Source: Afipia massiliensis (GTDB lineage: Bacteria > Pseudomonadota > Alphaproteobacteria > Rhizobiales > Xanthobacteraceae). Taken from it: a stretch of DNA of 64,000 nucleotides. This document shows positions 16,994-32,344 of this stretch, piece by piece; the stretch's first letter is position 1, and each line of letters begins with the position of its first letter. The notes under the pieces were generated by a model that worked only from the letters and a program-made list of their open reading frames with translations, was not told the DNA's origin and ran no database searches. The translations under genes and the position numbers were made by a program. The stretch is taken from the NCBI RefSeq assembly GCF_001006325.2, contig NZ_LBIA02000001.1, positions 434,001-498,000 of the forward strand, in the 5' to 3' direction.

Positions 16994-17059
16994 TCCGCGA
17001 ATCTCGGGGAAAGCGCTTTACCGCGACTAACGTCGTCGCTGATTAGGCTTGATTCTGGA

Positions 17060-17083
17060 AATTTTTCACGATAATGAAAAATT
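17060..17083. repeat. Perfect inverted repeat in the island's left gap
   Basis: AATTTTTCA, six bases CGATAA, then TGAAAAATT. AT-rich arms in a GC-rich genome stand out. It lies about 210 bp before the methyltransferase start and could be an operator or a recombination site. The rest of 16786-17295 shows no gene apart from the small ORF at 16871-16993. Confidence 0.5.
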
Positions 17084-17295
17084 GTCCTCAAGCGAGTCAT
17101 TGGACAGGGTAGTGGCTCGCTCCTGCATCATCTGATGCGGTCAGACGCTAGGTGAGATCACTCCTCCATTGGTTAGTGGTCCTAGCTATATCCTGTTTAG
17201 TGCTCCCAGTGAGCGCACCTCTCAACGCTTTCACCAGCAACGGCTGGCGCGTGGCTGCGACTTGTCGCAGACGCCGCTTCAGCATGGAGACGGTT

Positions 17296-18618
17296 ATGCT
17301 CAATGTCCAATGGGTGCCTATTGGCACGCTTAAACAAAATCCTCGCAACGTTCGCACTCACAAAAAGAACCAGATCAAGCAGATCGCCGACAGCATTCGG
17401 ACGTTTGGATGGACCTTTCCGATTCTGACCGACGAGATGCGAATGATCGTCGCCGGAACCGGCCGCTACCTCGCATCCACAGAACTCCGGCTGCGCGAGG
17501 TTCCTATCATCATTAAAGCGGGCCTCACCGAGACCCAGAAACGAGCGCTCGCGCTTGCCGACAATAAGATCGCGGCCAATGCCGGCTGGGATCACTTGGG
17601 CTTAGCCGCCGAGTTGGGAGAGCTTGCTACCCTTCTTCCTGAATGCAACCTCGACCTGCGGATCACGGGCTTTGAAGCGCCGGAGATCGACAACCTCATG
17701 GGCGCCTTTAGCGATTCTGAGCAAGACCCGGTGGACGAGATCTCTCGGCCGGCGGATATCGCGATAACGCGACGAGGCGACCTTTGGACGCTGGGCCGTC
17801 ATCAGCTTTATTGCGGTGATTCCGGCGATCCAGTTGACGTGCGAACACTCATGAGGCGCCAGATGGCGCACATGGTCTTTGCGGACCCCCCTTACAACGT
17901 GCCGGTTCGTTCAATACAGGGTCGCGGCAAAATTAAGCACCGGGAATTTTCATCGGCGTCGGGCGAAATGTCGCCAAAGCAATTCACGAGCTTTCTCGCC
18001 AAATGGATGAGGCTTGCCGTCGAGTTCTCCGAGGACGGCTCCATTCATTTCTGCTGCATGGACTGGCGGCACATGTCCGAGGTCCTTGCAGCGAGCGAGG
18101 AGACTTATAGCGAACTAAAAAACCTTATCGTTTGGGCTAAATCCAACGCTGGACAAGGCAGCTTCTATCGGTCCCAGCATGAACTAATCTTCGTCTTCAA
18201 GAACGGCGATAGATCTCACCAGAATAATATTGAGCTTGGAAAGCATGGCCGATCTCGCTCCAATGTCTGGCAGTACGCTGGCGTAAATACCTTCCGCAAA
18301 GACCGACTCGCAGAACTGACGGTCCACCCGACCGTCAAGCCGGTCGCCCTCGTGGCGGATGCGATGCGTGATTGCTCGCGGCGTAACGATATCATTTACG
18401 ATCCATTTATGGGCTCAGGCACAACAATTCTCGCAGCCGAGAAAGTTGGTCGCCGTGCCTATGGGATCGAAATCGATCCACTCTACGTGGACGTAGCGAT
18501 CCGGCGTTGGCAAGAGTTCACCAAACGCGACGCGATCCTAGAGGCTACCGGCCAGACCTTCGACGAGGTCGCCGCGAAGCAATCCGCCTCCCCCGCCCTC
18601 AAGCGCGTGAGGACATAA
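17296..18618 (+). CDS. ParB-nuclease-domain DNA methyltransferase (N4/N6, beta class)
   Basis: 440 residues from MLNVQWVPIG, with GGAGA seven bases upstream; an in-frame ATG at 17284 is a close alternative. Residues 1-110 form a ParB/sulfiredoxin-like domain (LKQNPRNVRTHKKNQIKQIADSI, then IVAGTGRYLA). The methyltransferase has DPPY at 197-200 and, later, DPFMGSGTT at 369-377, the order of beta-class amino-methyltransferases; HPTVKPVAL precedes it. It modifies adenine or cytosine amino groups in DNA. It is joined to a DUF5681 and a terminase gene by overlapping stops and starts, a combination seen in prophage-derived cassettes. No restriction enzyme partner is adjacent. Confidence 0.9.
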   Translation: MLNVQWVPIGTLKQNPRNVRTHKKNQIKQIADSIRTFGWTFPILTDEMRMIVAGTGRYLASTELRLREVPIIIKAGLTETQKRALALADNKIAANAGWDHLGLAAELGELATLLPECNLDLRITGFEAPEIDNLMGAFSDSEQDPVDEISRPADIAITRRGDLWTLGRHQLYCGDSGDPVDVRTLMRRQMAHMVFADPPYNVPVRSIQGRGKIKHREFSSASGEMSPKQFTSFLAKWMRLAVEFSEDGSIHFCCMDWRHMSEVLAASEETYSELKNLIVWAKSNAGQGSFYRSQHELIFVFKNGDRSHQNNIELGKHGRSRSNVWQYAGVNTFRKDRLAELTVHPTVKPVALVADAMRDCSRRNDIIYDPFMGSGTTILAAEKVGRRAYGIEIDPLYVDVAIRRWQEFTKRDAILEATGQTFDEVAAKQSASPALKRVRT

Positions 18619-19046
18619 TGGAATCGGATTCGAAAGAGAAACGCCCCGCCCGAAAGGTGCGGCGGAGGACGAGCGACGACGACGTCGGCTACGGAAAGCC
18701 TCCCAAAGCGCACCAGTTCAAGCCGGGACAGAGCGGCAATCCGAAGGGCCGCAAAAGGGGCGTCAAGAATCACGCGACGATCGTTAAAGAACTAATGCAA
18801 CGTACAGTTCCCGTCCCCATGCGCGGAAAGATGCGGAAGATCAGCCTTCGCGAGGCCATCTACCTCCGCATCGCTGACGACAGCCTGAAGGGGAATATCA
18901 AAAGCGCTGCTTTCCTCTTCAATCGTGACCAGATGATCGAAATGGGTAACGACGACATTCGCGAAGGTCTAGGCGATGACGATAAGGCAGTACTTGAGGC
19001 CTATCTCGCAGAATTCCGATCAAAGTCTTCGGGAGATAAATCATGA
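18618..19046 (+). CDS. DUF5681 domain protein
   Basis: 142 residues from MESDSKEKRPARKVRRR. The ATG overlaps the methyltransferase stop by one base (TAATG). HQFKPGQSGNPKGRKRG is the DUF5681 signature, followed by a helical region. The basic N-terminus suggests nucleic-acid binding. Genes of this family regularly lie next to phage terminase large subunits, so a small-terminase-like or packaging-adaptor role is a reasonable but unproven reading. Confidence 0.85.
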   Translation: MESDSKEKRPARKVRRRTSDDDVGYGKPPKAHQFKPGQSGNPKGRKRGVKNHATIVKELMQRTVPVPMRGKMRKISLREAIYLRIADDSLKGNIKSAAFLFNRDQMIEMGNDDIREGLGDDDKAVLEAYLAEFRSKSSGDKS

Positions 19047-20440
19047 CAAAGCAAGATCAAGGTGTCGTTTATGCCCTGCTCCGTTCCGACTTCGAAAGCT
19101 TTCTGCATCGCTGCTTTCGCATGCTCAATCCTGGCGCGGCCTACTTGCCAAATTGGCACATTAAAGCAATCGCACGCCAACTTGAACGCATTCAGAACGG
19201 AGAGACCAACCGCCTAATCATCAATATGCCGCCGCGATATCTAAAGTCGCTAACGGTCTCGGTGATCCTGCCGGCGTTCTTGCTCGGACATAATCCTCGA
19301 ATGAAGATCTTTGGTGTGAGCTACAGCAACGACCTTTCGGCCAAGCATGCTGCTGACTTTAGGGCGATTGTTCGGTCGGATTGGTACCGAAAAGTATTTC
19401 CGAGCATGCAGGTCGCTCGCGTCGCCGATTCCGACGTCTTCACGACGAAGCGCGGGTTCCGCCGATCAACCTCTGTTTCGGCAACGCTGACAGGCCTTGG
19501 CGGCGATATGATCATTCTAGATGATCCGCAAAAGCCTGTGGACGCACAGTCGGACACCCTGCGTAATTCCCTGAATCAGTGGTTTACTAACACACTCCTC
19601 TCGCGGCTCGATAACAAAGCGACGGGCGTCATTATTCTGGTCATGCAGCGAGTTCATCTTCACGACCTGACCGGCTTTCTGGTCGATAATTCCAGTGATT
19701 GGACCGTGCTGAGCCTGCCAGCCATTGCCGAGATCGACGAGAGGGTCGAGATTGGCGAAGGTGAGTACCACGCGCGCCGAGTTGGCGAAGCTCTTCATCC
19801 CCGGTACGAGACCATCTCAACACTGGAAAAACTTCGCACCCAAATGGGTTCGGCCATCTTCAGCGCTCAGTACCAGCAATCTCCCGTTCCGGACGGCGGC
19901 GCAATGATCAAGCGTGAATGGTTACGCTACTATGATCGGCTGCCGGAGCGGGGTTATCGTACCAAGTTGATCCATAGCTGGGACACTGCGGCAAAGGTGG
20001 GAACTCAGAATGACTGGTCGGTCTGCACAACCTGGCTTCTGGTCGACAATTTCTTCTACCTGATAGACGTCATACGAGGCCGCTATGAATACCCTCAGCT
20101 CCGCGCAATGGCTATCACGCTAGCGCAGAGAGACCAACCGCTTAAGGTCCTAATCGAAGATACATCGACGGGTGTCGCTTTGGCGCAAGAACTTCGCCAG
20201 AGCGGCATCTATACGGTTAAGCCTGTACCCGTCGAGCGAGATAAGCTAGGTCGGCTGTTCGTGCATCAGGCCAAGTTTGAAGGGGGCTTGGTGCTGTTTC
20301 CGCGGAAAGCGCCCTTTCTGGCACAGCTCGAAACCGAGCTTTTGACTTTCCCGCAAGGAAAGCACGACGATCAAGTCGATAGCCTCAGCCAGGCCCTGTC
20401 ATACAAGGGGGGATTCGACACGACCTATTCCTGGGCGTGA
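19043..20440 (+). CDS. Phage terminase large subunit-like protein
   Basis: 465 residues. The start overlaps the DUF5681 stop (ATGA). An ATPase motor with a degenerate Walker A PPRYLKSL (63-70) and Walker B GDMIILDD (154-161) is followed by an RNase H-like nuclease: Asp314 in HSWDTA, Glu372/Asp373 in LIEDTSTG, and Asp442/443/446 in KHDDQVDSL. All parts of a working packaging enzyme are present, yet no portal, capsid or tail genes follow. It may be a remnant of a prophage or a domesticated cassette. Confidence 0.9.
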   Translation: MTKQDQGVVYALLRSDFESFLHRCFRMLNPGAAYLPNWHIKAIARQLERIQNGETNRLIINMPPRYLKSLTVSVILPAFLLGHNPRMKIFGVSYSNDLSAKHAADFRAIVRSDWYRKVFPSMQVARVADSDVFTTKRGFRRSTSVSATLTGLGGDMIILDDPQKPVDAQSDTLRNSLNQWFTNTLLSRLDNKATGVIILVMQRVHLHDLTGFLVDNSSDWTVLSLPAIAEIDERVEIGEGEYHARRVGEALHPRYETISTLEKLRTQMGSAIFSAQYQQSPVPDGGAMIKREWLRYYDRLPERGYRTKLIHSWDTAAKVGTQNDWSVCTTWLLVDNFFYLIDVIRGRYEYPQLRAMAITLAQRDQPLKVLIEDTSTGVALAQELRQSGIYTVKPVPVERDKLGRLFVHQAKFEGGLVLFPRKAPFLAQLETELLTFPQGKHDDQVDSLSQALSYKGGFDTTYSWA

Positions 20441-20589
20441 CGGAGTTTAATTTGTGCCAATTTCAATGCACTGTTAAACGCTGCGCTATGCAAGTTTGCG
20501 CGTGATACCATACTGAGGCTAAATCCAAGGTGAGCAAGTCAATGCGACATCGCCTCCTTGGCTTAACCGTGGAGTGTGGTTGTGGGCGG

Positions 20590-21159
20590 TTAGAGCTTGC
20601 GGATCGATGAGAAGCGCATTGTGAAGACCGGGCTCTTCATCGATCCTCCCAAGGTCACGCTCTGCTCTTTCACGCAATCGAGGTCCGATGGAAAAAACCC
20701 TCCAGAAAACCGGACGGTGTCACCTCTTTTCATCACGGCCAGAGATTTGAAAATGTCCGTATCAGGATCGATCAGAGTTTTATCAAATAAATCCGATAGG
20801 TCGTTGTTCCAGGTTGAGACGTGCAAGCCTGACGCAAGTTCGAGCGTAATCACACCTCGACCATCGCCATTGGTGGATAGATAGGAAATCTTTGCTATCC
20901 ATCCACCTGCGTGATGCCCCTGAAGGGCGCTACAGATCGCCTGCTGCCTGGCATTGCGAATTCCACCTGCGGCCAATTCATTCCCGGCCGACGTGAATTG
21001 GGATCGTGCCTGCGTAATGGCCGCTATGAAGCGAGCCTGATCGGATGGAGGGGGCACACTCGGGGCCGGCGGAGCCGCACTTCGGCCGCCGCCGACAAGA
21101 GTTCCGACAACGACAGCTCCAAGTGCGCAGCCCAAGGCCGCCTTGATCGCAATGTTCAT
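20590..21159 (-). CDS. Hypothetical exported or membrane-anchored protein
   Basis: 189 residues. The start MNIAIKAALGCALGAVVVGTLVGGG is a single hydrophobic helix (signal or anchor), then a proline-rich linker. The remaining domain has strand-rich patterns such as GVITLELASGLHVSTWNN and DTVRFSGGFFPSDLDCVKE, ending in FTMRFSSIRKL, which could be an OB-fold-like beta barrel. I do not recognise a named family. It faces the terminase cassette convergently and has no clear partner. Confidence 0.7.
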   Translation of the reverse strand: MNIAIKAALGCALGAVVVGTLVGGGRSAAPPAPSVPPPSDQARFIAAITQARSQFTSAGNELAAGGIRNARQQAICSALQGHHAGGWIAKISYLSTNGDGRGVITLELASGLHVSTWNNDLSDLFDKTLIDPDTDIFKSLAVMKRGDTVRFSGGFFPSDLDCVKEQSVTLGGSMKSPVFTMRFSSIRKL

Positions 21160-21176
21160 GGGACTACTCCCGATTA

Positions 21177-21302
21177 GTGTTCGATGTGCCCTTCCGCCGC
21201 ATCGTGAACCGCTCGGCGTGGGTGGATCAGCACATCGCTTCCTATGAGAGCAAAGTCCACAACACCTCGGCTGTCGGTGTCACTATCATCACCGTCGGTT
21301 AA
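21177..21302 (+). pseudogene. Possible C-terminal gene remnant
   Basis: A 41-residue frame, FDVPFRRIVNRSAWVDQHI and then SYESKVHNTSAVGVTIITVG, looks like the end of a real protein (mixed helix and strand, no bias), but it has no full-length partner. The frame stays open upstream only through the antisense of the neighbouring gene. It may be the tail of a gene cut by an insertion event at the cassette border. The family is not recognised. Confidence 0.3.
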
Positions 21303-21374
21303 TAAAATCCTATTTTGGGATAATCCGTTTCTGGGATCAAATTACTTGCCGCCGATTCACGGCCCTGGCGGCGC

Positions 21375-21650
21375 ATGCAGAAGACCCTCAAATCCGCGGA
21401 TTATGCCCGCCTGATCCACCTGCTAGTCGCAGTGCGGAAAGCTGCGGATGTTCGGCAGCAGGCGCTGGCCAAGAAGCTGGGCAAACCGCAGTCCTTTGTC
21501 GCCAAGTATGAAAACGGGGAGCGCCGCCTCGACCTCATCGAGTTTGTGGCCATCGCTCGCGCGCTTGGCGCCGATCCCGTGAAGCTGTTTAAGGACTACG
21601 TCGCGGCAAAGGGCTCGCCGAAAGCCGCCTCAAAGCGTCCGACCAAATAA
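21375..21650 (+). CDS. XRE family helix-turn-helix regulator
   Basis: 91 residues. A Cro/CI helix-turn-helix occupies residues 14-70: LLVAVRKAADVRQQALAKKL, GKPQSFVAKYENGERRLDLIE. A short lysine-rich tail follows. It probably regulates the recombinase cassette that starts downstream, as XRE genes are often found before these DUF3489/DUF2924/recombinase sets. Confidence 0.88.
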   Translation: MQKTLKSADYARLIHLLVAVRKAADVRQQALAKKLGKPQSFVAKYENGERRLDLIEFVAIARALGADPVKLFKDYVAAKGSPKAASKRPTK

Positions 21651-21792
21651 TCCGCTGATGCGCGAGCCCAGAGCCCTTTTTGGGCGGATCATTTCGTGAT
21701 CGTGGTCAACCGATAAGAGCCACAAGATTGCTGCGTTTCCGCTCGACTTCGCCAGCGCATGGAGCGTCACTGTCGCCGCAATCGGAGGCAAA

Positions 21793-22017
21793 ATGATGGA
21801 CCGCAAAATCACGGAACAGGCAATTGGTCTGATCCTCGTCGAGATTGGTGCTCGCCTTGGCGAGGCAGCACGGATTGCCAAGGCTGCCGAGGCGTGTGCG
21901 CTGGCCGGCAGCGTCAGTGAAGGCGTGAGAGTCTCGATGGATCTCGAACAGATTTTCTATGAGACCGGCCGTTTGCAGGATGCGGCTTCGCTGCTCAACC
22001 GGCTGTCGAGCGACTAA
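21793..22017 (+). CDS. Small conserved-type protein of the recombinase cassette, unknown function
   Basis: 74 residues, [20 protein letters not shown] and on, all helical, ending [19 protein letters not shown] precedes the ATG. No domain is recognised. It is placed immediately before the DUF3489 gene and transcribed in the same direction, so it probably belongs to the cassette. Confidence 0.65.
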
Positions 22018-22114
22018 GGATCTCTTCCGCCCAATGGATTCTCTGCCCGTCTGGAACGACGGGCTTGCGGCAGTGGCAGCACAGGATGCTGTCGTTCCCG
22101 CAGGGAGAACCGAA

Positions 22115-22471
22115 ATGGCCACCAGCAATCGAAAGCGCCCTCGAAAGACCGGGCGTAAATCCACACCGGCAGCAAAGCGACCGACAAAATCCGCTGTGAA
22201 GGTTCTGCCGTCCGACGCGTCGAAGAAATTAGCACCACTGAAGACGCCAGAGGTCGCCGCATCCAAACAGGACAAGGTCCTTAAGATGTTGCGCGCGCCC
22301 TCCGGCACCACCATTGCCGCCATCATGAAGGCAACCGCCTGGCAGGAACATTCGGTGCGAGGGTTCTTTGCAGGTACTGTGCGCAAGAAGCTCAAGCTGA
22401 ATTTGACCTCGGTCAAAACCGATGGCCAGCGCGTATACCGCGTCGTCGCGAAGGCGATCCCCGCGAAATGA
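22115..22471 (+). CDS. DUF3489 domain protein
   Basis: 118 residues from [16 protein letters not shown], with AGGGAG upstream. A basic, Lys/Pro/Ala-rich N-terminus precedes the DUF3489 core: [21 protein letters not shown], then [20 protein letters not shown]. The core looks like a winged-helix DNA-binding unit. It overlaps the DUF2924 gene by an ATGA junction. This pair routinely accompanies large serine recombinases in rhizobial-type genomes. Confidence 0.85.
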
Positions 22472-22956
22472 CCCAAGCCCCCTCCTCCATGAAGCCAGCC
22501 GATCCGGCGGTAGAAGCCGAACTGGATCGGCTGGCGACGGCTCCCATCGTCGAACTGCGCAAACGTTACCGGGAGGTGCTTCGAACGGATCCGCCAAAGG
22601 CTTTCGGTCCGGATCTGCTCCGTCGCAGCATCGCCCATCGGATTCAGGAAAAGGCTTATGGCGGACTGTCCGGTCCGACAAAGCGGCTGCTCGACCAGCT
22701 TGTGAAAGCCATGGCGGCCAAACCCAACGGGCGACTGGAACTGCCGCGCCGGATTAAGCCCGGCTCGGAGCTGGTGCGGACATGGAAGGGAAAGACCTAC
22801 CGCGTCGTGGTTCGTCCGGACGGCTTTGCCTATGAGGGTAAAACCTATGCGGGCTTGTCGGAGATTGCGTCCCTGATTGCCGGTAGCAACTGGAATGGAC
22901 CGCGGTTCTTCGGGCTACGGTCGAAGCCCGAAAAGGCTGAAGACCATGGCAAGTAA
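22468..22956 (+). CDS. DUF2924 domain protein
   Basis: 162 residues. [21 protein letters not shown] and the C-terminal [38 protein letters not shown] are typical of DUF2924. The C-terminal half is strand-rich and shared with many mobile-element accessory proteins. It overlaps the upstream gene by 4 bp and the recombinase start by 11 bp, so translation of the three is coupled. It is probably an accessory factor for the recombinase; no biochemical role is known to me. Confidence 0.85.
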
Positions 22957-24481
22957 CGCGCCTAAAACCCTGCGCTGCGCCATTTACACCCGCAAATCGA
23001 CTGAGCACGGCCTTGAGCTGGAATTCAATTCGCTCGATGCCCAGCGCGAGGCCTGCGAGTCTTACATCAAGAGCCAGGCGTCGTTGGGTTGGAAGGCGCT
23101 GCCACAGCTCTATGACGATCCAGCGTTCTCAGGCGGCAATCTCGAACGTCCTGCGCTCCAGCGACTTCTGAAGGATATCGACGCCGGCAAGGTCGATGTG
23201 GTCGTCGTCTACAAGATCGATCGCCTCACCCGTTCGCTGGCGGACTTTGCCAAGCTGGTCGAGGCGTTTGATGCCAGATCAATCTCGTTCGTCGCCGTGA
23301 CCCAGCAATTCAACACCACCACCTCGATGGGCCGGCTGACCCTCAACGTCCTGCTATCCTTTGCTCAGTTCGAACGCGAGCTATCCTCCGAGCGCGTCCG
23401 GGACAAGGTCGCTGCCTCGCGCCGAAAGGGGAAGTGGACCGGCGGCACGGTGCCGCTCGGTTATGAGGCTCGAGACAAGAAGCTCGTCATCAATCCCGCG
23501 GAAGCAGAAACCGTCCGCATCATCTTCCGACGCTATGTCGAGCTACAATCCTTTGGCCGCCTTGTTACCGATCTCGACAAGCGCGGCATCGTCACCAAGC
23601 GGCGGAATACCAAGGTCAAGAAGTTCAATGGCGGTATTCCGTTCACCTACGGTCCCCTCGCCCACTTCCTGAAAAACCGAATCTACCTTGGCGAGACCGG
23701 CCACGGCGGCAAATGGTATCCGGGCGAACACAAACCAATTGTTGACCGAAAGACATTCGACAAGGTGCAAGAATTGCTAGCTGCAGGTGTCAACAAACGC
23801 AGAGTCAAACGATCCGACAGCGGCGCGCTGCTCATCGGAAAACTGTTCGACGATCGCGGCAACGCAATGAGCCCGAGCTTTTCGTCAAAGAACGGCGCCC
23901 GCTATCGCTTCTATGTTAGCTCGGCAATTCTGCGCGGTCGCAAAACCGCAGCCGGATCGGTCGCACGGGTTTCGGCGACCGACATCGAACAAACGCTGAT
24001 CAATGCCCTGCGCCAACGGCTGAAGATTGATCAAGCTGTGTTGGATGCGGATATTATCGGCGCTTACGTCGCACGTGCAGAATTGAGCAGCCGCGCCGTC
24101 AAAATCAACACTACGCCGGCAGCAAAAATTCGATCGAACAAGCTCTCGATCCCTTGGCAGGTGCGCAAACCAAGTTCCGCGTCGGTCGTTGAGGCCAACG
24201 ACGAACGCCAGCCTGATGCAAAACTTGTTCAAGCGATTGTTAGAGCCCATGCATGGCTGCGTGATCTACAGAATATGAAATTTGACACAGCCGAGGCGCT
24301 AGCGGCCTCGGTCAAGCTGCATCCTAAGTTAGTAAGGCAAGAACTGCGTTATGCGTTTTTGGCGCCAGCCATAAAAGAGGCAATTTTAACAGGCGATCAG
24401 CCATCGGCCCTTTCGCTCGCACGGATTCCGAAGAACTTGCCGCTGGCATGGTCGAAACAGTGCCGCACCCTTGGTTTCTGA
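22946..24481 (+). CDS. Large serine recombinase (resolvase/invertase superfamily)
   Basis: 511 residues from [20 protein letters not shown]; Ser18 in YTRKS is the catalytic nucleophile. The resolvase domain runs to about 150 (VVVVYKIDRLTRSLADFAKL, FAQFERELSSERVRDKV), followed by the recombinase domain (KWTGGTVPLGYEAR, FLKNRIYLGETGHGGKWYPGEH) and a C-terminal region lacking an obvious coiled-coil motif. It can catalyse integration or excision of DNA between short att sites. It lies at the centre of the accessory island and may have moved the neighbouring defence genes. Confidence 0.92.
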   Translation: MASNAPKTLRCAIYTRKSTEHGLELEFNSLDAQREACESYIKSQASLGWKALPQLYDDPAFSGGNLERPALQRLLKDIDAGKVDVVVVYKIDRLTRSLADFAKLVEAFDARSISFVAVTQQFNTTTSMGRLTLNVLLSFAQFERELSSERVRDKVAASRRKGKWTGGTVPLGYEARDKKLVINPAEAETVRIIFRRYVELQSFGRLVTDLDKRGIVTKRRNTKVKKFNGGIPFTYGPLAHFLKNRIYLGETGHGGKWYPGEHKPIVDRKTFDKVQELLAAGVNKRRVKRSDSGALLIGKLFDDRGNAMSPSFSSKNGARYRFYVSSAILRGRKTAAGSVARVSATDIEQTLINALRQRLKIDQAVLDADIIGAYVARAELSSRAVKINTTPAAKIRSNKLSIPWQVRKPSSASVVEANDERQPDAKLVQAIVRAHAWLRDLQNMKFDTAEALAASVKLHPKLVRQELRYAFLAPAIKEAILTGDQPSALSLARIPKNLPLAWSKQCRTLGF

Positions 24482-24995
24482 AGGCTCGAAATCACAAGTC
24501 CAGTTGGAAACCTGTAAGTCCGCTCCTGCGCCAAAAGCTGGCCTTACCGCGTCGATCGCGCAATGTGGGACTTGGCGGCCGGAATCTGCCGGCCTGCTTC
24601 GCAGTTCGACGGGGGAAAGCGGCCGTCAGATCCGAGCCTTGGTGGCGGTTGGTCAAATGCGGCTGTGTGGCGCGACCGGAACCGCCGGCAAAGTTCATGC
24701 ATACTCGGATTGCGGCGTCACCCCGAAGGACCAAGGTTGTGATGCAGCATTGGAAAGTCGTTCCAAATGGATATGCACCAGATCCAAGCTCCGCATGAGG
24801 ATGATCCACCGGCTTGGATGCTCTTCTCCTGCCGATTCGGATGCCGGTTTGGGCTCGATGACGGCCCTGCATTTGTTCACGATCTGTTCAAGCGTGTTCT
24901 TTTGGCCTATACTTGGTTCTCGATTCGCAAGTTCGGGGCGATCACCGCACCTCATACTGCAGCTAATGCTCTCGATGGGAACAAGAGAAAGAATC
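24482..24995. other. Gap between recombinase and ubiquitin-like operon
   Basis: About 510 bp without a convincing gene. Several frames stay open but none has protein-like sequence or a ribosome site. It must hold the promoter of the ubiquitin-like operon, although no clear -35/-10 pair or operator can be read. It may also contain an att half-site of the recombinase cassette. Confidence 0.5.
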
Positions 24996-25235
24996 ATGGC
25001 TAGGCAATTTCAATTCAAGATCGAAGACGAGACCTATCACTGGGACGAGCAGTTCATCACTGGCGCACAGGTGCGGCAGGTTGGACCAGGCATCCCCGAG
25101 GGCATGGACCTGTACGTTAAGATCCGCAATCTCCCCGGCCGTCCAGTTGCTGACAACGAGAAGATCGACCTCGCAGAGCCGGGCATCGAGAAGTTCTATG
25201 CGCAGGATGCCAGCTCCGAGGCGGGCAACTCCTAA
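24996..25235 (+). CDS. Ubiquitin-like protein (multiubiquitin family, single domain)
   Basis: 79 residues from MARQFQFKIEDETYHW. The pattern FQFKIEDETYHWDEQFITGA, QVRQVGPGIPEGMDLYV, then NEKIDLAEPGIEKFYA fits the beta-grasp fold of the bacterial multiubiquitin family: a strand, a second strand, the G-P turn, a helix and the final strand with F-Y. Only one domain is present. The end is AQDASSEAGNS; there is no terminal diglycine, so either processing or a different C-terminal chemistry is needed. It is the first gene of a four-gene operon with E2, JAB-E1 and DUF6527. The extended frame upstream to 24471 is not credible. Confidence 0.85.
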   Translation: MARQFQFKIEDETYHWDEQFITGAQVRQVGPGIPEGMDLYVKIRNLPGRPVADNEKIDLAEPGIEKFYAQDASSEAGNS

Positions 25236-25237
25236 CG

Positions 25238-25666
25238 ATGGCGCTCCTCTTTGATGAAGACTACCAGATACTTAAAGATGCGGGTCTGACGTTTACCGAG
25301 GACGAGGCATCACGCTTTTTTATATTCCGCGATTTTCCACTGCCCGAAGGCATCTACACCGCGAACGGGCAGGTGCGAGCGACCATCGATGTGCTCTACA
25401 TCATTCCGCCCGACTACAACACATCGGGCGGTGACATGTTCTGGGTTCATCCGCAGCTCGCACGTGCCGACAGCAAGCCAATTCCAAACGTCGGCACGGC
25501 AGGCCCGAACCAAGATTCGCGTACTCATGCTGGCATCGAGTACACACGCTGGTCTCGCCACTGGAACCAGCCCAGCGTCACATGGAAGCCAAAGGTCGAC
25601 AATATTCGAACCATCGTTGACCGCATTATGTGGGCGTTCACCTATCCGGATGCGAAGCGCCCATGA
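25238..25666 (+). CDS. E2-like ubiquitin-conjugating enzyme (prokaryotic E2 family E), lacking cysteine
   Basis: 142 residues. ATIDVLYIIPPDYNTSGGDM, FWVHPQL and THAGIEYTRWSRHWN (W-S-R-H at 105-108) are the signature of prokaryotic E2 family E. The protein contains no cysteine anywhere, so the normal thioester E2 chemistry is impossible; a serine or threonine oxyester, or a scaffold role, must be considered. Ser106 and Ser113 are candidates only. It starts 2 bp after the Ubl stop and overlaps the E1 gene by ATGA, so the operon is translationally coupled. Confidence 0.85.
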   Translation: MALLFDEDYQILKDAGLTFTEDEASRFFIFRDFPLPEGIYTANGQVRATIDVLYIIPPDYNTSGGDMFWVHPQLARADSKPIPNVGTAGPNQDSRTHAGIEYTRWSRHWNQPSVTWKPKVDNIRTIVDRIMWAFTYPDAKRP

Positions 25667-27117
25667 GCGGACATCGGATCACACTGCTTGGCACGCAGCA
25701 CGATCGTCTGCGTATATGGCTCGACGATCATCCGGAAGGTCATGAGCGCGGAGCGATCATCCTGTTCCGCCGCTTCGAGCGCAACCATGCGGGCCTTCGG
25801 CCGTCAATCAGATTCGTCTGTGTCGACATCATTGAGATGCAAGACGACTGGATACTTGACAGCTCGCCCGTGCACCTGCGGATCAACCTTCGCAAGATGC
25901 AGGACATCTACTTTCGCTGCGAGCAGGACGGCCACGAACTCGGCTTCGTGCACAATCACCCCGGCGGTTTCCTTGAGTTCTCGGAAAAGGATGAGGACAA
26001 CGAGCGGCGCATCTTGAAGGGATATGCCGGCTGTAACGGTAAGTCTGTTGCACTTGTTTCGCTCCTCTGGGCGGAGGAACGATGGCGCGCTCGCATACGG
26101 CGGGGCGCCGCACCGCAGCAGACAGAAGCTGTGCGGCACGTGGCGGTGCTTGGCATCAACCTGGACATGCATATCAACGGTGAGGAGAGCGCACCTTCCG
26201 AGGTCCTCAAGCGTCAGGCGGCGGCTTTTGGCGTACCGTTCAATCGCAAACTCCAGTCGCTGCGTGTGGCCGTTGTTGGTGTAGGCGGCACCGGCTCCTC
26301 GGTGGCGACGCTATTGGCCCGCGCCGGCGTAGGCGAGCTCGTTCTGATCGACGGCGACGTGCTTGAGGGTACCAATCTCAATCGCGTGCGCGGCTATCGC
26401 ACCCAAGATGTGAAGCGAAATAAGGCCGAGGTGTTGACCGCCTACCTTCAGTCCCTGGAGTTGCCTGGCGTTACCGTGTCGGCCATTGGCAAGTATCTGG
26501 ACAAGTCGCCGGATGCCATCGACGCGATCTCTGGCGCTGACGCAATCTTCGGATGCACGGACGATGTTGCAGGGCGTGATCTCCTCAATCAGGCCACCTA
26601 CTACTATGCCTTGGCATTCATCGACGTCGGTCTCACCGGCAAGATCGACACCGGCGCCGACGGAGAGCCGTATCTTCGAGACCATCGCGGGCGCATCAGC
26701 CGCATCCTTCCGGAGGACGGCAAATGCCTACGCTGCCAGAAGGTAGTGACCCAACAGAAGCTCGACTATGAGCGCGAACTGAGAACGCGCCCCGAGCTTG
26801 CGGAACTCGACAAGGAAACGCTCAAGCAGGAATACTATCTGGTCGGCGGTGGGGAGCGAGCGCCAGGAGTCGGACCGTTTACGAGCGCGTCAGCGGACAC
26901 TGCAGTTGCTACGCTGATGGACCTCATCCGACCGTTTCGCAAAATCCCAAGCGACCTGCTGAAGGACAATATCTGGTACGACTTCGTCCACATGGTCATC
27001 CATAGCAACGCGTACCCAGATGATCCCGGCTGTTTCTGCTGCGGTCCTACAGGACTCAAGCTCAAGCGTGAACGCGGATACCGGCTCGACATGCCGGCGC
27101 TCGGGAAGATCACCTAA
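25663..27117 (+). CDS. JAB (JAMM) isopeptidase fused to ThiF-type E1 activating enzyme
   Basis: 484 residues from MSGHRITLLGTQ. Residues 1-165 are a JAB domain with an intact zinc-protease motif: His97, His99, Ser107 and Asp110 (H-x-H-x7-S-x2-D), with Glu28 as the likely general base. Residues about 195-460 are an E1 domain: GVGGTG at 206-211 for ATP, Asp230, Arg241, and zinc pairs Cys355/Cys358 and Cys457-460. Between the zinc pairs (359-456) there is no cysteine, so no E1 transfer cysteine is visible. Cys298 in FGCTDD is in the conserved nucleotide-pocket position. The protein could both activate the Ubl and trim or remove it. Confidence 0.9.
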   Translation: MSGHRITLLGTQHDRLRIWLDDHPEGHERGAIILFRRFERNHAGLRPSIRFVCVDIIEMQDDWILDSSPVHLRINLRKMQDIYFRCEQDGHELGFVHNHPGGFLEFSEKDEDNERRILKGYAGCNGKSVALVSLLWAEERWRARIRRGAAPQQTEAVRHVAVLGINLDMHINGEESAPSEVLKRQAAAFGVPFNRKLQSLRVAVVGVGGTGSSVATLLARAGVGELVLIDGDVLEGTNLNRVRGYRTQDVKRNKAEVLTAYLQSLELPGVTVSAIGKYLDKSPDAIDAISGADAIFGCTDDVAGRDLLNQATYYYALAFIDVGLTGKIDTGADGEPYLRDHRGRISRILPEDGKCLRCQKVVTQQKLDYERELRTRPELAELDKETLKQEYYLVGGGERAPGVGPFTSASADTAVATLMDLIRPFRKIPSDLLKDNIWYDFVHMVIHSNAYPDDPGCFCCGPTGLKLKRERGYRLDMPALGKIT

Positions 27118-27121
27118 CATC

Positions 27122-27577
27122 ATGTTTAAGTGGCTCGCAGATAGATTTCGTGCGTTTCTAGATAGCCTCTCGCGGCAGGAAGCTCCCGTTGAGCGTGTGC
27201 CTGAAGTCAAGAAGGAACCGCCGCCGCCACCTGTCTATTTCGAAAGCTGTGAGGTGGTTGCGAAGACGCCTGCGAATGCGTCCATCGGCGACCGGCAACT
27301 CATCAGCGTCGTCTATCAGGACAAGCCCCGCTGGACGATGTTCCGTTGCCCGTGTGGCTGTGGCGATATGATCTCTTTGCCCATGCAGCCGCCACACAAC
27401 CCACGATGGCGCCTATCATTGAGCGCAGCTGGCCGCGCGACGCTTTCACCCTCGGTGTGGCGCAATAAGGGCTGCATGAGCCACTTCTGGATCAGGGACG
27501 GCCGCGTGTACTGGACGCGAGATACAGGAACGGAACCCTGGCTGGCTCGACCAGATAGGTATTCCAAGCGAGCATAG
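27122..27577 (+). CDS. DUF6527 family protein of the ubiquitin-like operon
   Basis: 151 residues. An N-terminal amphipathic helix (MFKWLADRFRAFLDSL) and proline stretch precede the DUF6527 core: a Cys cluster CPCGCG at 76-81 and LSPSVWRNKGCMSHFWIRDG with Ser111, Cys118, Ser120 and His121. From memory, DUF6527 partners of bacterial ubiquitin-like systems have been proposed as processing or deconjugating proteins; treat this as unverified. Here it starts 4 bp after the E1 stop and closes the operon. Confidence 0.8.
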   Translation: MFKWLADRFRAFLDSLSRQEAPVERVPEVKKEPPPPPVYFESCEVVAKTPANASIGDRQLISVVYQDKPRWTMFRCPCGCGDMISLPMQPPHNPRWRLSLSAAGRATLSPSVWRNKGCMSHFWIRDGRVYWTRDTGTEPWLARPDRYSKRA

Positions 27578-27812
27578 ATTGTTCGGCCACGCGCGGATGC
27601 CATGCAGATCGCGACGTCCGATATAAACGCAACCGTTGCCGGTGCGCCTTTTTGGATAGAGTCCGCTTTCAGGAACATAGAGGGTCGTCTTCGACGACCG
27701 AATTTGGGGGCAAAGCAGTAATCCGAGACTTGATCTATTGAGTCATCTTTGGGTCAGGACCACACGTTCGGATAGCTGAGCTGATAATGCCCACAATCAG
27801 TTGACCCAGCCA

Positions 27813-29663
27813 TCATTTTGGGATGAAGCCTTTTCTTTCACCGTCCTTGGCTTTTTTACCGGGGAAGAACGTGTAGGCTAAAATAGCCGCAACGCCTTTC
27901 GGCGGCTCTTTGTTGTCCAGAACGATGATCTGCAAATCTGACTGAAGCTTTGCGATGCTTGCCCAAAACGCCGTTTGGATGCCCTCACCAACGCTATCAT
28001 TTGGATCCTCTTGACCCTCATCTCGACCTTCTTTGAATGTCGTGAGAGGCGAGTCTAGAACGAGAAAGCCCGGATGCGGCATACTATTTTCATGACAGAA
28101 ACGCAGAAGTCCAATCGCGAACGCTGCGTGAAGAATCGCTCGGACACCCTTGCCGTTTGATTGGCGCGGCTTGCCATCAACTTTGATATCGAACCGCTTG
28201 TGGTCGAACTCAACTCGCGCAGGTCCGTCCCAAGCCCATTCTTTAAGAACTTTTTCGATTACCAAACAAAATTTGTGTACAGCGATCTCATCAATACTCG
28301 CCCAGTCCTTCGGCGCAGATATTGGCTTGACGAGAGTGCTCTCCAAGGATTCTCGCACGGTATTAAGCGCGTTCGCCTGTTCCGAATCAGATTTGAGATT
28401 TTCTAACTCAAGGCGACGCGCAATCAATTCATCCAACTGGAGTTTGGTTACGCGCAATGCCGGCGCAAGTTCCTGCTCGACACGCGCATCGATCTTTGCG
28501 AGGGCAGCACTACCAGTCGCCCTCTCGGTTTCCCTCGCGCCGCGGCGAATTCCAAGGCTGCTAATTGTATCAACTAACTCGTTCCGAAGTCCGAGAATTT
28601 TAGCAGCTTCGGACTGCGCCGATTTGTAAACTGTTCCGACCTTCGCATAGCCCTCGAACTTGTGACGGTGTTCGTCATTCATTGGCTGGTCACAAACCGG
28701 ACAGCGCGCTTCTTGCAAGCCCCCGAGAAAGTGCGAGCCTTCCGCAATGAAATCCAATCTCTGAAGATCAGAATCATAACGTTCAGTAAGTAAATTATAG
28801 CGGCTCAAAAGCTCATCAATCGCAATCAATTGCGATTCTGCGTTTTGAACAATTGCAATAGCTTCACTACGGTCCCGATGTAGCCGCGCTCTTTCTTCCC
28901 GATCTTCTGCGAGGGAATTCGATAAACGCTCAATTGCTTCATCGACACGTTCAATTGTCGACTCTTGCTCCTTAGACCTAAACGGCTCCAAACGCTGCTC
29001 GATCGGTTTAAGTAACTCCGAAATCAGCGCCAATTTCGCCCTAGCTTCCGCCTGGGCAATTTCAGATCGTTCAGCGCTAATGATTCCTTCGTCATCGATC
29101 CCGGTCAGAAGATAAGACAGCAACCGTTTTCTCGCCGTCTGATCATATCCCGAATTGCCGAACATCGGTGAACTCTCAGCGATGATAGAGGTTTCATCGA
29201 CAAGGAATGCAGGCAATAGAGTCCTAACAGTTAGGCGCTGGGTTTTGCCTTTGGCATTTGAGCGAAGTTGCGCTTCTTTCATTCCAGCAAAAGAAAGAAA
29301 GATCGATGAAATATCAGGACCAGCGCTTTTTCCAGGACGTCTTTTCCACGCCACGGTCGTCCCATCACCGCTGATACTGTCAATCCTTGAGTAATGGACT
29401 TTGATATCGCCGCCGGTTAGGTGACGTATCAATGTCAATGGCTCATTGTTCGCACCGGCGAACTCCAGATGAACTAATTCATATCCGGCGTCCTCGTCGA
29501 TCTTTTTAGTCATCTCCGACGCGCCCAAGACGTAATCCATACAGCGCAGCATATAACTCTTGCCCGTGTTCGATAGGCCGGCCAGCACATTTGCGCCGGG
29601 CTCAAACTTAACCGATGCGCTGAGCTTTCCGGCACCCGTTAGGCGGATTTCGCGAAGCTGCAT
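27813..29663 (-). CDS. Rad50/SMC-like ABC ATPase of an ABC-3C system
   Basis: 616 residues. Walker A GLSNTGKS (29-36), a central coiled coil (about 200-430) interrupted by a zinc hook CPVC at 321-324, a signature-like QSNGKGVRAI (501-510), and Walker B FLVLDSPL (533-540). It should form a dimeric, DNA- or substrate-sensing ATPase. The ATG overlaps the preceding stop by one base (TGATG), so translation is coupled. It is the ATPase component of a three-gene conflict system with the middle component and nuclease effector encoded upstream. Confidence 0.9.
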   Translation of the reverse strand: MQLREIRLTGAGKLSASVKFEPGANVLAGLSNTGKSYMLRCMDYVLGASEMTKKIDEDAGYELVHLEFAGANNEPLTLIRHLTGGDIKVHYSRIDSISGDGTTVAWKRRPGKSAGPDISSIFLSFAGMKEAQLRSNAKGKTQRLTVRTLLPAFLVDETSIIAESSPMFGNSGYDQTARKRLLSYLLTGIDDEGIISAERSEIAQAEARAKLALISELLKPIEQRLEPFRSKEQESTIERVDEAIERLSNSLAEDREERARLHRDRSEAIAIVQNAESQLIAIDELLSRYNLLTERYDSDLQRLDFIAEGSHFLGGLQEARCPVCDQPMNDEHRHKFEGYAKVGTVYKSAQSEAAKILGLRNELVDTISSLGIRRGARETERATGSAALAKIDARVEQELAPALRVTKLQLDELIARRLELENLKSDSEQANALNTVRESLESTLVKPISAPKDWASIDEIAVHKFCLVIEKVLKEWAWDGPARVEFDHKRFDIKVDGKPRQSNGKGVRAILHAAFAIGLLRFCHENSMPHPGFLVLDSPLTTFKEGRDEGQEDPNDSVGEGIQTAFWASIAKLQSDLQIIVLDNKEPPKGVAAILAYTFFPGKKAKDGERKGFIPK

Positions 29664-30172
29664 CAACCCAGCTCCAAATCGCGCAAGGCCGTCAAACGCT
29701 CAAACTCAGCACCCCAGCGACCTACGTTTTCGGTCATAAAATCTTCCAATTCAGCATCGGTGATTTCGCCAAACCTTTCCACCACCCAACTCGCACGCGA
29801 AACTAGGCTTTTCGCGTAGCCAGATTTCAGAAGCGCGATAAAATTGGCGGTAAGTGGTGAGGCGGCATAAAAAATGCCCTTCGCCTCTAGCCGCTTGTCG
29901 ACCAGTTCGCGTGCAAACATTAAATCAAGTGCATCTCTGACTATATCGCGCTTAACCAGCCATTCGGAACCCCTGAATGGTACAGCGGGATGTAAGCTAC
30001 CTAGGCTTCCGTCGACGTCACCAGAATGCACGAGCAAATAGTCGTAAGTAATGAGGCGCTGTAGGTCCAGTTTCTTTGGCTTGCTGGCGTTGAGCAAATA
30101 CAGCAACCTCAGCCCGCATTCCAAGGGAGTATTGAATAATCGCTCCATCGGCGTCGCTTCTGACAAACTCAT
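29663..30172 (-). CDS. ABC-3C system middle component
   Basis: 169 residues from MSLSEATPMERLFNTPLE. LECGLRLLYLLNASKPKKLDLQ and LITYDYLLVHSGDVDG are the pattern of ABC-3C middle component 2, a helical winged-helix-like adaptor. The start ATG overlaps the effector stop (ATGA), which decides it over an upstream in-frame GTG at 30184. It should link the ATPase and the nuclease-bearing effector. Confidence 0.85.
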   Translation of the reverse strand: MSLSEATPMERLFNTPLECGLRLLYLLNASKPKKLDLQRLITYDYLLVHSGDVDGSLGSLHPAVPFRGSEWLVKRDIVRDALDLMFARELVDKRLEAKGIFYAASPLTANFIALLKSGYAKSLVSRASWVVERFGEITDAELEDFMTENVGRWGAEFERLTALRDLELG

Positions 30173-31308
30173 TTCTCGCACCACTCGATAGAACCATCAT
30201 TCGCCAGATGATGACAAACGCCTTCGCGATCGTTTGGCGTGGCGTGAAGATCGAGAACATGTCCGCCTAATTGAAGCGATTGAGACGCAAGCACTGTGCT
30301 CTGAAGGCGAACAAGTCCAGCTTGGCCAGAGGTCGTGTAAGCGTGAAAAAGACCGTCCCGGAAATGCCCTAATAGGGTATCGAAGAATGTAGCATCGGCC
30401 ATCTGATCACGCGCCAATTCTTTCAATCCCTCCGCACTGTAGAAAGTGATGCGTGACCGATCAAAGAGTTTTTGCATCGCTGGGCTTTGCGCAAAATCGG
30501 CAATCGACGCGACATTGACACCCAATTTTTCCGCAATGACTGCATAAAGCTGCGTCACGTATCGCGTTTCCTCGGGCGCGACCGTCGACGGTGGAGCTGG
30601 CGGCGCGGGTCTATCAATCAAAGGAAGGCCGAAGACAGCTAAGTGATACGATGTTTGTGCGTGTTCGTTGATAAGCTGAAGAGGCTGCTTCGCTTTAAAG
30701 ATGCTGAAGTCGAACGCGTTGATATGCGCTGTCAATTCCGGAGATAGCGCGACGGGATCTGTAGTTATTTTGGTCGCGCAATGCTTTGACCAGTTCGCAA
30801 GAATGAACGATCTCAATTTAGATGGATCGTCCAATAAGTCTTGCAAATCCCCAGTCACGCCTTTGTGCGTGACAAACCAATAGCTTTCTGGCGGCGTGTA
30901 ATCTCCACGCTCCGTATAGTATAGAACCTTTGCGATTTCAGCGGCTGCAACACCTGAGCCGAGCCGACCTGCATAGCGCTTACACTGATATAGATGCCAC
31001 CGACGGGGTTGGATATTCGAAGGGTCTAGCCAAACAACGATATCGCGGCCTTTGTCGCCCGCCCCTCCCCGCTGTTGAACATCAGCAACGCCGATTGGCA
31101 GTTTTGCCAAATAGCCGTCAGCCCATTCCAGAATGAATCTCTCAAAATCATTCGGGCTAAAGGTTGCAAGACGATCAAGGCTACTGACTGGCAGGCCTGC
31201 CCCAATACCGAGAAGACGAGCGTTCGCGTTCGGCCAAGGAGCGGGCTTGGGAATCGCGACAAACGCGCCGGGACCGATAGCCGCCGCTTTAATAGTCGTC
31301 TTCGCCAC
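30169..31308 (-). CDS. ABC-3C effector: Mrr-like restriction endonuclease fold with ABC-3C C-terminal domain
   Basis: 379 residues from GTG. Residues 45-125 hold a PD-(D/E)xK nuclease of the Mrr type: FSPNDFERFILEW, then GDKGRD (84-89) and LYQCK with Gln108 and Lys110. The C-terminal part (ITFYSAEGLKELARDQM, GLVRLQSTVLASQSL, DREGVCHHLAN) matches an ABC-3C C-terminal domain, the part that binds the middle component. The system probably cuts DNA once the ATPase senses invasion. It is the first gene of the leftward operon. Confidence 0.88.
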   Translation of the reverse strand: MAKTTIKAAAIGPGAFVAIPKPAPWPNANARLLGIGAGLPVSSLDRLATFSPNDFERFILEWADGYLAKLPIGVADVQQRGGAGDKGRDIVVWLDPSNIQPRRWHLYQCKRYAGRLGSGVAAAEIAKVLYYTERGDYTPPESYWFVTHKGVTGDLQDLLDDPSKLRSFILANWSKHCATKITTDPVALSPELTAHINAFDFSIFKAKQPLQLINEHAQTSYHLAVFGLPLIDRPAPPAPPSTVAPEETRYVTQLYAVIAEKLGVNVASIADFAQSPAMQKLFDRSRITFYSAEGLKELARDQMADATFFDTLLGHFRDGLFHAYTTSGQAGLVRLQSTVLASQSLQLGGHVLDLHATPNDREGVCHHLANDGSIEWCEK

Positions 31309-31757
31309 CCGCCCCCCAAGACGTTTGGGCTAACGCTATCACACGTTGTGAATTCGTCGCAATTTCGTCGAGAAACTTGCGATTGATAAAATGTCAGAGG
31401 AGCTGGATTTGACGGTACGCATCCGCTTCACGACTTTCGCCACCGTTCTTTGGAGCTTGCACGCGTATGCTTTAGGGTAGGCAAACATAACAAGTTCGGG
31501 ACGCCCCTGCGACATAAAGGGTCGTCTGCGCATGTTTTGACGACTGCCAGCCGCCCACTCCGCACTGATCGAACCGCGTCTCCGCCAGCAATCTCTCGAA
31601 AACGGGAATATCGGGGGCACCCGCCGGAGACTTCGCTCGTTCCACTGCGAGACAATGCTAATCGGGAGGCCAGAGACCGCACCGTTGACGTCAAAAGCCC
31701 GCCAATGGCGGGCTTTTCTGCGATTTCGGAAGAAGAAATTCTACTCGCTAGACTGGC
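31309..31757. other. Gap between ABC-3C operon and tRNA-Gln
   Basis: About 450 bp. It holds the ABC-3C promoter at its left end and the tRNA terminator at 31693-31717. Otherwise I see no gene; open frames here have no protein-like sequence. If an integrated element ends at the tRNA, its attachment core would be here or in the tRNA 3' end. Confidence 0.5.
31693..31717 (-). terminator. Intrinsic terminator of tRNA-Gln
   Basis: AAAAGCCCGCC, AAT, GGCGGGCTTTT: a perfect 11-bp stem with A/T runs on both sides, able to end transcription in either direction. It lies 41 bp beyond the tRNA 3' end. Confidence 0.85.
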
Positions 31758-31832
31758 TGGCTGGGGCGGGAGGATTCGAACCTCCGCATGGGGGAATCAA
31801 AATCCCCTGCCTTACCACTTGGCGACGCCCCA
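31758..31832 (-). tRNA. tRNA-Gln (anticodon TTG)
   Basis: 75 bases including an encoded CCA. The acceptor stem pairs TGGGGCG with CGCCCCA, the anticodon arm is GGGGA-TTTTGAT-TCCCC with TTG in the loop centre, and the T arm carries GTTCGAATC. Its 3' end points at the defence island, the usual orientation for tRNA genes used as integration sites. I found no second copy of the 3' end within the window. Confidence 0.95.
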
Positions 31833-32344
31833 ATAGCGCTGAACGGTTTACGGCGAGGCCGGCCTGAGCCGTTTCGCGCCGCTCGTGTCGGAAGGTGGCG
31901 AGCAGATGTCCTTGACGGAAGTCATGCGCCGCACCGATTCACCGTGGCAGCGCAGGTCTTAGAGCATTTTCCGTCAAAGTGGAAACCCGGTTTTCGGTGG
32001 CAAAATGCGGCCAAACACAACCCTTTTATCGTAATCGGCCGCCATGGTGCCGGATACCGCGACAGAGCACCGAACGACAAAACGACCGGCCGCTGGTCCG
32101 CCTGCGCGATAGTCCGCCAATAGAAAAGCCGTCACGGGCTCGCGAAAATCGGCCTGCGCCGCAGTTGAGAGCCGGTCGTTTTCATGGGAAGACAGGGGGC
32201 GTCGGGCGGGCCGGACAAGACCCGCCGGCGCGAGGAAAACTGACCACCAAACAACGAGTTGCAGGCGTTCTCCCGCCTCCGGCCAATGGCCGTAGCGCGG
32301 AACGAGCGCCGCCCGAGGCTCTGCCCGAACAGCGAGATCATGCC
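31833..32344. other. Gap upstream of long acyl-CoA dehydrogenase with intergenic palindrome
   Basis: About 510 bp without a supported gene; a frame in phase with the dehydrogenase stays open to 31979 but lacks a ribosome site. It carries the tRNA promoter and a 45-bp imperfect palindrome at 31964-32008, GCATTTTCCG at one end and AAAATGC at the other. This type of element recurs in related genomes. Confidence 0.55.
31964..32008. repeat. Intergenic palindromic element
   Basis: Starts GCATTTTCC, contains GTGGAAACCCGGTTTTCGG, and ends AAAATGC, giving an imperfect hairpin. Similar short elements are scattered between genes in Bradyrhizobium-like chromosomes (from memory). Only this copy is evident in the window. 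Confidence 0.5.

Follow-up and report, generated by a model that had tools for sequence, protein, structure and literature searches.

A Bub operon of a divergent clade in Afipia massiliensis, with a cysteine-free E2 and a near-invariant E2 serine

How might a ubiquitin-like protein (Ubl) be handed from an E1 to an E2 that offers it no cysteine? This question is raised by a four-gene operon of Afipia massiliensis, located on the + strand at positions 24996-27577 of a 64,000-nucleotide stretch (assembly GCF_001006325.2, contig NZ_LBIA02000001.1, positions 434,001 to 498,000), the whole of which we call the window. The genes encode, in this order, a Ubl, an E2, a JAB-E1 fusion and a DUF6527 protein, and each has an ATG and one stop. 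A 2-bp gap separates Ubl and E2, the E2 and JAB-E1 genes overlap by 4 bases, and a 4-bp gap precedes the DUF6527 gene, in agreement with the initial annotation of the sequence, which had given this order with genes overlapping or within 4 bp.

24996..25235, + strand: Ubl (BubA-type), single beta-grasp domain, 79 aa; Multi_ubiq PF14452, 3e-8; PDB 9cd2
25238..25666, + strand: E2 (BubB-type, Prok-E2 family E), 142 aa, no Cys; PF14462, 9.3e-29; BubB 9EAE_C, VIA Z 16.2
25663..27117, + strand: JAB-E1 fusion (BubCD-type), 484 aa; ThiF, 8.7e-37; BubCD 9EA4, 1.6e-27, residues 2-431
27122..27577, + strand: DUF6527 protein, 151 aa, C-x3-C-x37-C-x2-H; PF20137, 1.7e-23; matched in 79/80 homologous loci

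Assignment to the Bub class

The profile searches proposed with the initial annotation placed the Multi_ubiq, Prok-E2_E, ThiF and DUF6527 matches above the curated Pfam cut-offs. The JAB half of the E1 stayed below its cut-off (E 0.063), and JAB was assigned through its JAMM residues, which are present, and through homology to BubCD. In the PDB, the best match of the E1 was Citrobacter BubCD and that of the E2 was Citrobacter BubB (5.4e-5 with the single sequence, 2.4e-22 with a 50-row profile); the Ubl best matched the multi-ubiquitin protein 9cd2 (3.3e-10). Consistently, an AlphaFold2 model of the E2 (predicted local distance difference test (pLDDT) 91.2, predicted template modelling score (pTM) 0.86) was closest to 9EAE_C, 'Structure of Citrobacter BubCD(D104A)-BubB' (Foldseek 1.2e-6; VIA root mean square deviation 2.1 over 122 aligned residues), and the next-ranked folds among the 50 matches listed were mostly ordinary E2s with Z 7.2-8.6. 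These matches, together with the gene order, bear out the earlier suggestion that the operon belongs to the bacterial ubiquitination-like (Bub) class. It is an intact-looking Bub operon, a further member of an already described class, from a divergent clade.

Other ubiquitin-like systems fit less well. Bil (BilABCD) has an E2 with a catalytic cysteine; the window E2 has none, and the best solved matches of both E1 and E2 are Bub proteins. CBASS Cap2/Cap3 and 6A-MBL are built on an E2-E1 fusion with a CD-NTase or MBL partner, whereas in the window the E2 is separate and the E1 is fused to JAB. The 6A-MBL model scored 48 bits against a cut-off of 320, and the PADLOC E1-E2 models matched the window E1 only around the ThiF domain, at about residues 167-368.

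The initial annotation had rated the novelty of the operon too high, since the class was described without an E2 cysteine in 2006. In its account of type 6e, that paper (Iyer et al., PMC1779556) lists a poly-Ubl, an E2/RWD-like domain from which the conserved cysteine is missing, a fusion of JAB with an E1 domain, and a metal-binding protein whose signature is C-x(3)-C-x(35-38), its last pair printed as H-x2-C; it also remarks that in some E1s JAB is replaced by a domain X. The window shares the Ubl, the cysteine-less E2/RWD-like domain, the JAB-E1 fusion and the C-x3-C metal-binding protein, but its Ubl is single, whereas the type 6e account gives two to three Ubl domains with one solo exception. 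In terms of the features by which Bub or type 6e operons are recognized, the window carries a Multi_ubiq-type Ubl with a processable C-terminal Gly (Gly77 and a two-residue tail), a family-E E2 that has W-S-R-H and lacks the canonical cysteine, a JAB fused to a ThiF-type E1, and a metal-binding-type DUF6527 protein, the metal binding itself being predicted.

Bub operons were defined recently, 544 have been identified, and protection against phages has not been demonstrated for them according to PMC13373217; PMC12687455 groups Bub with systems that apparently act mainly against phages.

The solved Citrobacter BubB and BubCD (PDB 9EA4, 9EA5, 9EA8, 9EAE, 9EAV) resemble the window in the family-E E2 with W-S-R-H and the JAB-E1 fusion, and close plasmid homologues likewise have Ubl and DUF6527 in line. 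Unlike the window, those homologues have Ubl and E2 fused and lack the zinc-type cysteine pairs, with Thr at the first pair; E1 identity is 27%.

The same architecture recurred in other genomes. Among the best 80 of 285 relatives in the genome collection, E2 and DUF6527 were each matched in 79 loci, the misses being L064 and L052, of which L052 ends at a contig edge. All nine fetched plasmid loci carry a Ubl, an E2 (separate or fused) and a ThiF-type E1; eight of them have an annotated DUF6527 gene, and in the remaining one (L020) DUF6527 was matched without being annotated. Three plasmids with separate genes are annotated in the order Ubl-E2-E1-DUF6527, and five other loci have Ubl and E2 fused. 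In one plasmid locus (L014) an IS256 transposase lies between E2 and E1.

To count residues, we dropped the 18 of 121 E1 matches that scored 80 or less, all from viral contigs, and removed the partial L103; L052 was also left out of the conservation counts by group. A quick-method E1 tree of 86 rows, built without 16 near-identical or odd rows and without L103 and L052, placed the window with 28 others in a clade, here clade W, with support 100 and a stem of 2.47 changes per column. Its members include Mesorhizobium, Geobacter and relatives, Bacteroidota, Rhodothermia and gammaproteobacteria. Close to the window are nine Mesorhizobium loci (L023-L031), which have the same four genes and E1s 64-66% identical to the window's, but differ in having Cys at E2 position 103 (Thr in the window) and a shared metabolic neighbourhood. 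In another genome of the window's genus (L002) the Bub locus is Citrobacter-like and zinc-less, so this single genus holds two distant Bub types. When 385 genomes of the class were searched with the E2 protein, the matches were the genome it came from and two proteins 36-39% identical to it, and hence no close relative in that sample; a phage tblastn with the E2 gave no match. An IMG/VR scan with the single E1 sequence was unproductive, and one with the E1 alignment gave 20 loci, 18 of them weak.

The E2: cysteine content, Ser106 and position 103

We consider it likely that this Bub operon works by JAB maturation, E1 adenylation and relay of the Ubl to E2 Ser106 as an oxyester, and then to a target. 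The JAB domain of JAB-E1 would trim the two-residue Ubl tail and expose Gly77, the ThiF domain would adenylate Gly77, and the Ubl would pass to Ser106 either directly from the adenylate or via an E1 hydroxyl (candidates Thr363 and Thr407), and from Ser106 to the target protein. JAB may also reverse conjugation, and DUF6527 would act next to E1, where its probable role is that of a small protein that binds metal and serves in recognition or regulation. This reading is based on the four Pfam matches, the sequence and fold matches to BubCD and BubB, the gene order, the conserved JAMM and ATP-site residues, the terminal Gly and Ser106. Ye et al., in 2026, reportedly found oxyester intermediates in Citrobacter Bub.

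Having no cysteine in its 142 residues, as the initial annotation stated and our residue count confirmed, the window E2 can form no thioester. By itself the lack of cysteine is unremarkable and is weak evidence. At the cysteine frequency of 12 hand-picked window proteins (49/6296 residues), a 142-residue protein is cysteine-free with P = 0.33, the 98-residue E1 stretch discussed below with P = 0.47, and both together with P = 0.15. Moreover, 19 of 103 aligned E2s are cysteine-less within the span of the window E2 (17 when up to 8 flanking residues are counted). The other 84 have at least one cysteine, so that zero cysteine, the starting point of the initial annotation, does not define the class; its constant feature is Ser106. 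The weight rests on homology, that is, on an E2-fold protein without cysteine but with a near-invariant W-S-R-H serine.

25544..25546, + strand: E2 Thr103, three residues before Ser106; Cys in 25/30 clade-W E2s, Gln in 71/73 others
25553..25555, + strand: E2 Ser106 of W-S-R-H, proposed oxyester nucleophile; Ser in 101/103 E2s and in the solved Citrobacter BubB

The two exceptions at position 106 (L011, L012) both show S-W-H two columns earlier by eye, and Citrobacter BubB has the whole W-S-R-H. On this conservation, Ser106 is our proposed acceptor. Position 103 behaves differently. Besides the 25 cysteines, the clade-W E2s have Thr in the window, Ser in L033, and Asp, Leu and Phe in L035, L040 and L049, and on the tree the position switched between cysteine and other residues at least four times, gain and loss not being distinguishable by count. 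A cysteine near the presumed active site is typical of clade W, and the window E2 lost it or never had one. Because C, T, S, D, L and F all occur within the clade, the residue at 103 is unlikely to be essential and the clade-W cysteine looks dispensable; given Asp, Leu and Phe at this position, we reject Cys103 as an essential nucleophile.

Several points weigh against the proposed relay. A profile alignment of the E2 family to UBE2D2 and UBE2N gave no usable alignment (probability <3%), so either 103 or 106 may correspond to the canonical E2 cysteine. The conservation of Ser106 could be structural. In addition, the Citrobacter proteins fall in a different group, with no zinc cysteines and Thr at E1 355, and a long branch leads to clade W, so carrying the mechanism over from Citrobacter would be an extrapolation.

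Ubl maturation, the E1 step and rival routes

25224..25226, + strand: codon of Gly77, predicted mature C-terminus, then an Asn-Ser tail; Gly column in 17/17 aligned Ubls
Within 25744..25992, + strand: JAMM metal-site residues E28, H97, H99, S107 and D110; 30/30 W, 62-63/65 Z and 7/7 N rows
26725..26736, + strand: first zinc-type pair C355/C358; 30/30 W and 65/65 Z rows
26737..26862, + strand: E1 crossover loop 359-400, no Cys; loop alignment
26749-26751, + strand: E1 Thr363, candidate hydroxyl; group-wise residue count
26836-26838, + strand: E1 Tyr392, near-invariant; Tyr in 101/102 rows
27031..27042, + strand: second zinc-type pair C457/C460; alignment rows

The Ubl, which has no cysteine, looks like a precursor. 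A terminal-type Gly lies near the C-terminus in 70 of 72 separate Ubls, followed by 0 (25), 1 (4), 2 (25), 3 (14), 6 (1) or 8 (1) residues, and thus by 0-3 residues in 68 of 72; in Ubl-E2 fusions, such a Gly precedes the E2 in 26 of 27. The motif list behind these tail counts was compiled after viewing the same tails that it then counted, whereas the fully conserved Gly77 column is independent of it. No Ubl was matched at 3 of 102 loci with an E2 match. A terminal Gly with a short tail in separate Ubls, and ahead of the E2 in fusions, is as expected of a processed precursor, and JAB would be the obvious protease to cleave it.

The adenylation (ATP-site) residues of the E1 are conserved across rows. 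Its cysteines lie at 53, 86, 124, 298, 355, 358, 457, 459 and 460, leaving none within 359-456, as the initial annotation had noted; the corresponding stretch is cysteine-less in 64 of 102 aligned E1s. By group, clade W (W) and the second zinc-type group, Z, retain Cys355, Cys358, Cys457 and Cys460; in the seven rows of the Citrobacter-like group N, position 355 is occupied by Thr or Ser and position 358 by Asp or Ser. Within residues 359-411, no Ser, Thr or Cys position is common to W, Z and N. Position 363 is Ser, Thr or Cys in 25/31 W and 6/7 N rows but in only 5/65 Z rows, the remaining 60 having Asp, Asn or another residue. Position 407 is Thr in 31/31 W and 62/65 Z rows and Asn in 7/7 N rows; position 405 is Ser or Thr in 59/65 Z and 7/7 N rows and never in W. 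These patterns exclude a single E1 hydroxyl common to all groups. Either the E1 nucleophile would differ between groups, with Thr363 and Thr407 as the candidates here, or the E1 would form no covalent intermediate. The initial annotation had excluded an E1-E2 thioester in favour of an oxyester or direct transfer; this stands for the E2, and for the E1 half the sequence is compatible with a hydroxyl relay or with direct transfer, the three groups sharing no hydroxyl in residues 359-411.

One version of the relay, which we regard as possible though rather unlikely, is that in clade W the Ubl goes from the adenylate straight to E2 Ser106 without ever being bound covalently to the E1, and that Cys103 is a non-essential residue that has changed several times, to Thr in the window. 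Also rather unlikely is that the E2 is an inactive RWD-like binding domain and that the E1 itself moves the Ubl from the adenylate to targets. Such an inactive E2/RWD-like role was proposed from the missing cysteine in the type 6e account of 2006 (PMC1779556), and the cysteine-free window E2 would fit it. However, near-invariance of W-S-R-H over 103 rows suggests more than docking, and BubB was solved together with BubCD, as the structure title states, although a complex alone does not show catalysis.

We find it quite improbable that position 103 is the catalytic one, which would make clade W a thioester branch using Cys103, with Thr103 as the nucleophile in this genome. The prevalence of Cys103 in clade W is what that arrangement predicts, and the Thr of the window and the Ser of L033 are nucleophiles too. 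The Asp, Leu and Phe residues and the repeated changes at 103, the Gln in nearly all other E2s, and the lack of a conserved cysteine at any E1 loop position all argue against it. We retain the relay through Ser106 as the preferred reading.

DUF6527, the genomic setting and implications

The DUF6527 protein has its cysteines and histidine at C76-x3-C80-x37-C118-x2-H121, and its model (pLDDT 92.9, pTM 0.74) found no convincing match in a PDB fold search (Foldseek best E 1.4; VIA best Z 3.5), which does not prove a new fold. A viral fold search returned an unnamed protein of 89 residues (1.5e-6) and another of 116 residues (0.017), and a literature search on DUF6527 found no paper. Its most constant residues are Pro110 and Ser111 (each in 130 of 131 rows) and His121 (128), the rest being gaps. 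An invariant Cys76-His121 pair is ruled out by Ser76 in L095. Cys80 and Cys118 are both absent in nine rows (L017, L066-L068, L075, L076, L088, L095 and L098), which means that these proteins have not retained the presumed metal site.

The family extends beyond Bub operons: DUF6527 was found in 29 of 297 genomes of the order and in 1 of 14 control genomes, while only 12 of the 297 have the family-E E2. In seven of 14 fetched regions (L167-L173), an E1 is followed by DUF6527, as in the window, with a Ubl match before the E1 in six; unlike the window, these loci have no family-E E2 match, and their ThiF-type E1s (388-451 aa) differ in the N-terminal part as judged by eye. They may fit the remark of Iyer et al. 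on domain X replacing JAB. The family may also occur outside Ubl systems, as DUF6527 homologues in L175 and L177 adjoin genes that look phage-lysozyme-like by eye, no search having been made. In a clade-W locus of a Bacteroidota metagenome-assembled genome (L038:5992-7830), JAB-E1 and DUF6527 share one open frame. This fused frame suggests that the two act together.

The operon lies in a region of low guanine-cytosine (GC) content, about 0.50-0.60 at 17-31 kb, compared with 0.61-0.65 at 31-38 kb and 0.57 at 38-41 kb, and the lower-GC stretch (about 17000-31832) ends at a tRNA-Gln (31758-31832). On its upstream side the operon is accompanied by a serine recombinase gene together with DUF3489 and DUF2924 genes, by a terminase-like gene and by a gene for a DNA methylase(-ParB). 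Directly downstream, and convergent with the Bub operon, is a complete-looking Lamassu/ABC-3C system at 27813-31308 on the - strand (PADLOC: LmuB 3.2e-168, LmuC 1.4e-52, LmuA 1.3e-103). The surroundings look like a mobile island with defence genes. A search for an attachment-site repeat at the tRNA-Gln showed that the longest piece of 31720-31860 to recur exactly, and in direct orientation, in the window is 13 bp.

DNA-damage controllers beside Bub operons are common without being obligatory, PMC13373217 giving CapW or CapH+CapP for 219 of 544 and CapK+CapS for 59 of 544. Within 14000-36000 of the window, 11 queries at 1e-5 found no ImmA/helix-turn-helix (HTH; CapH/CapP-like) or CapK/CapS-like gene; CapW was not searched for, and the same search missed an HTH gene in L042 that was found otherwise. 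ImmA-like genes lie upstream in 35 of 50 Z loci versus 1 of 30 W loci; for CapK/CapS the counts are 3 of 30 in W and 1 of 50 in Z. Clade W as a whole is not without controllers, as three W upstream genes picked by eye encode WYL proteins and one an HTH_3 protein. The missing controller match, and a sigma-70-like promoter likewise not found in 24300-24995, could point to an operon that is decaying or non-functional in this genome, but with four intact, tightly packed reading frames and their motif residues retained this is the least probable of the explanations considered. In the nine Mesorhizobium loci, aldehyde dehydrogenase, fumarase and Lrp-type genes lie upstream in 9/9, and an aminotransferase lies downstream in six, two of the other three ending early; they sit at one shared place, unlike a typical hopping defence locus.

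Collectively, our results place the operon in a divergent Bub clade with members in Mesorhizobium, Desulfobacterota, Bacteroidota and gammaproteobacteria. The sequence differences found in nature within this clade set a seemingly dispensable cysteine at E2 position 103 apart from a constant serine at 106. Should the Ubl pass directly from the adenylate to Ser106, the route would be shorter than an E1-E2 relay, and the clade would offer naturally occurring transitional forms between E2s with and without cysteine, all built around the same serine. Its variants are a ready-made means to ask whether the Ubl relay needs a covalent E1 step.

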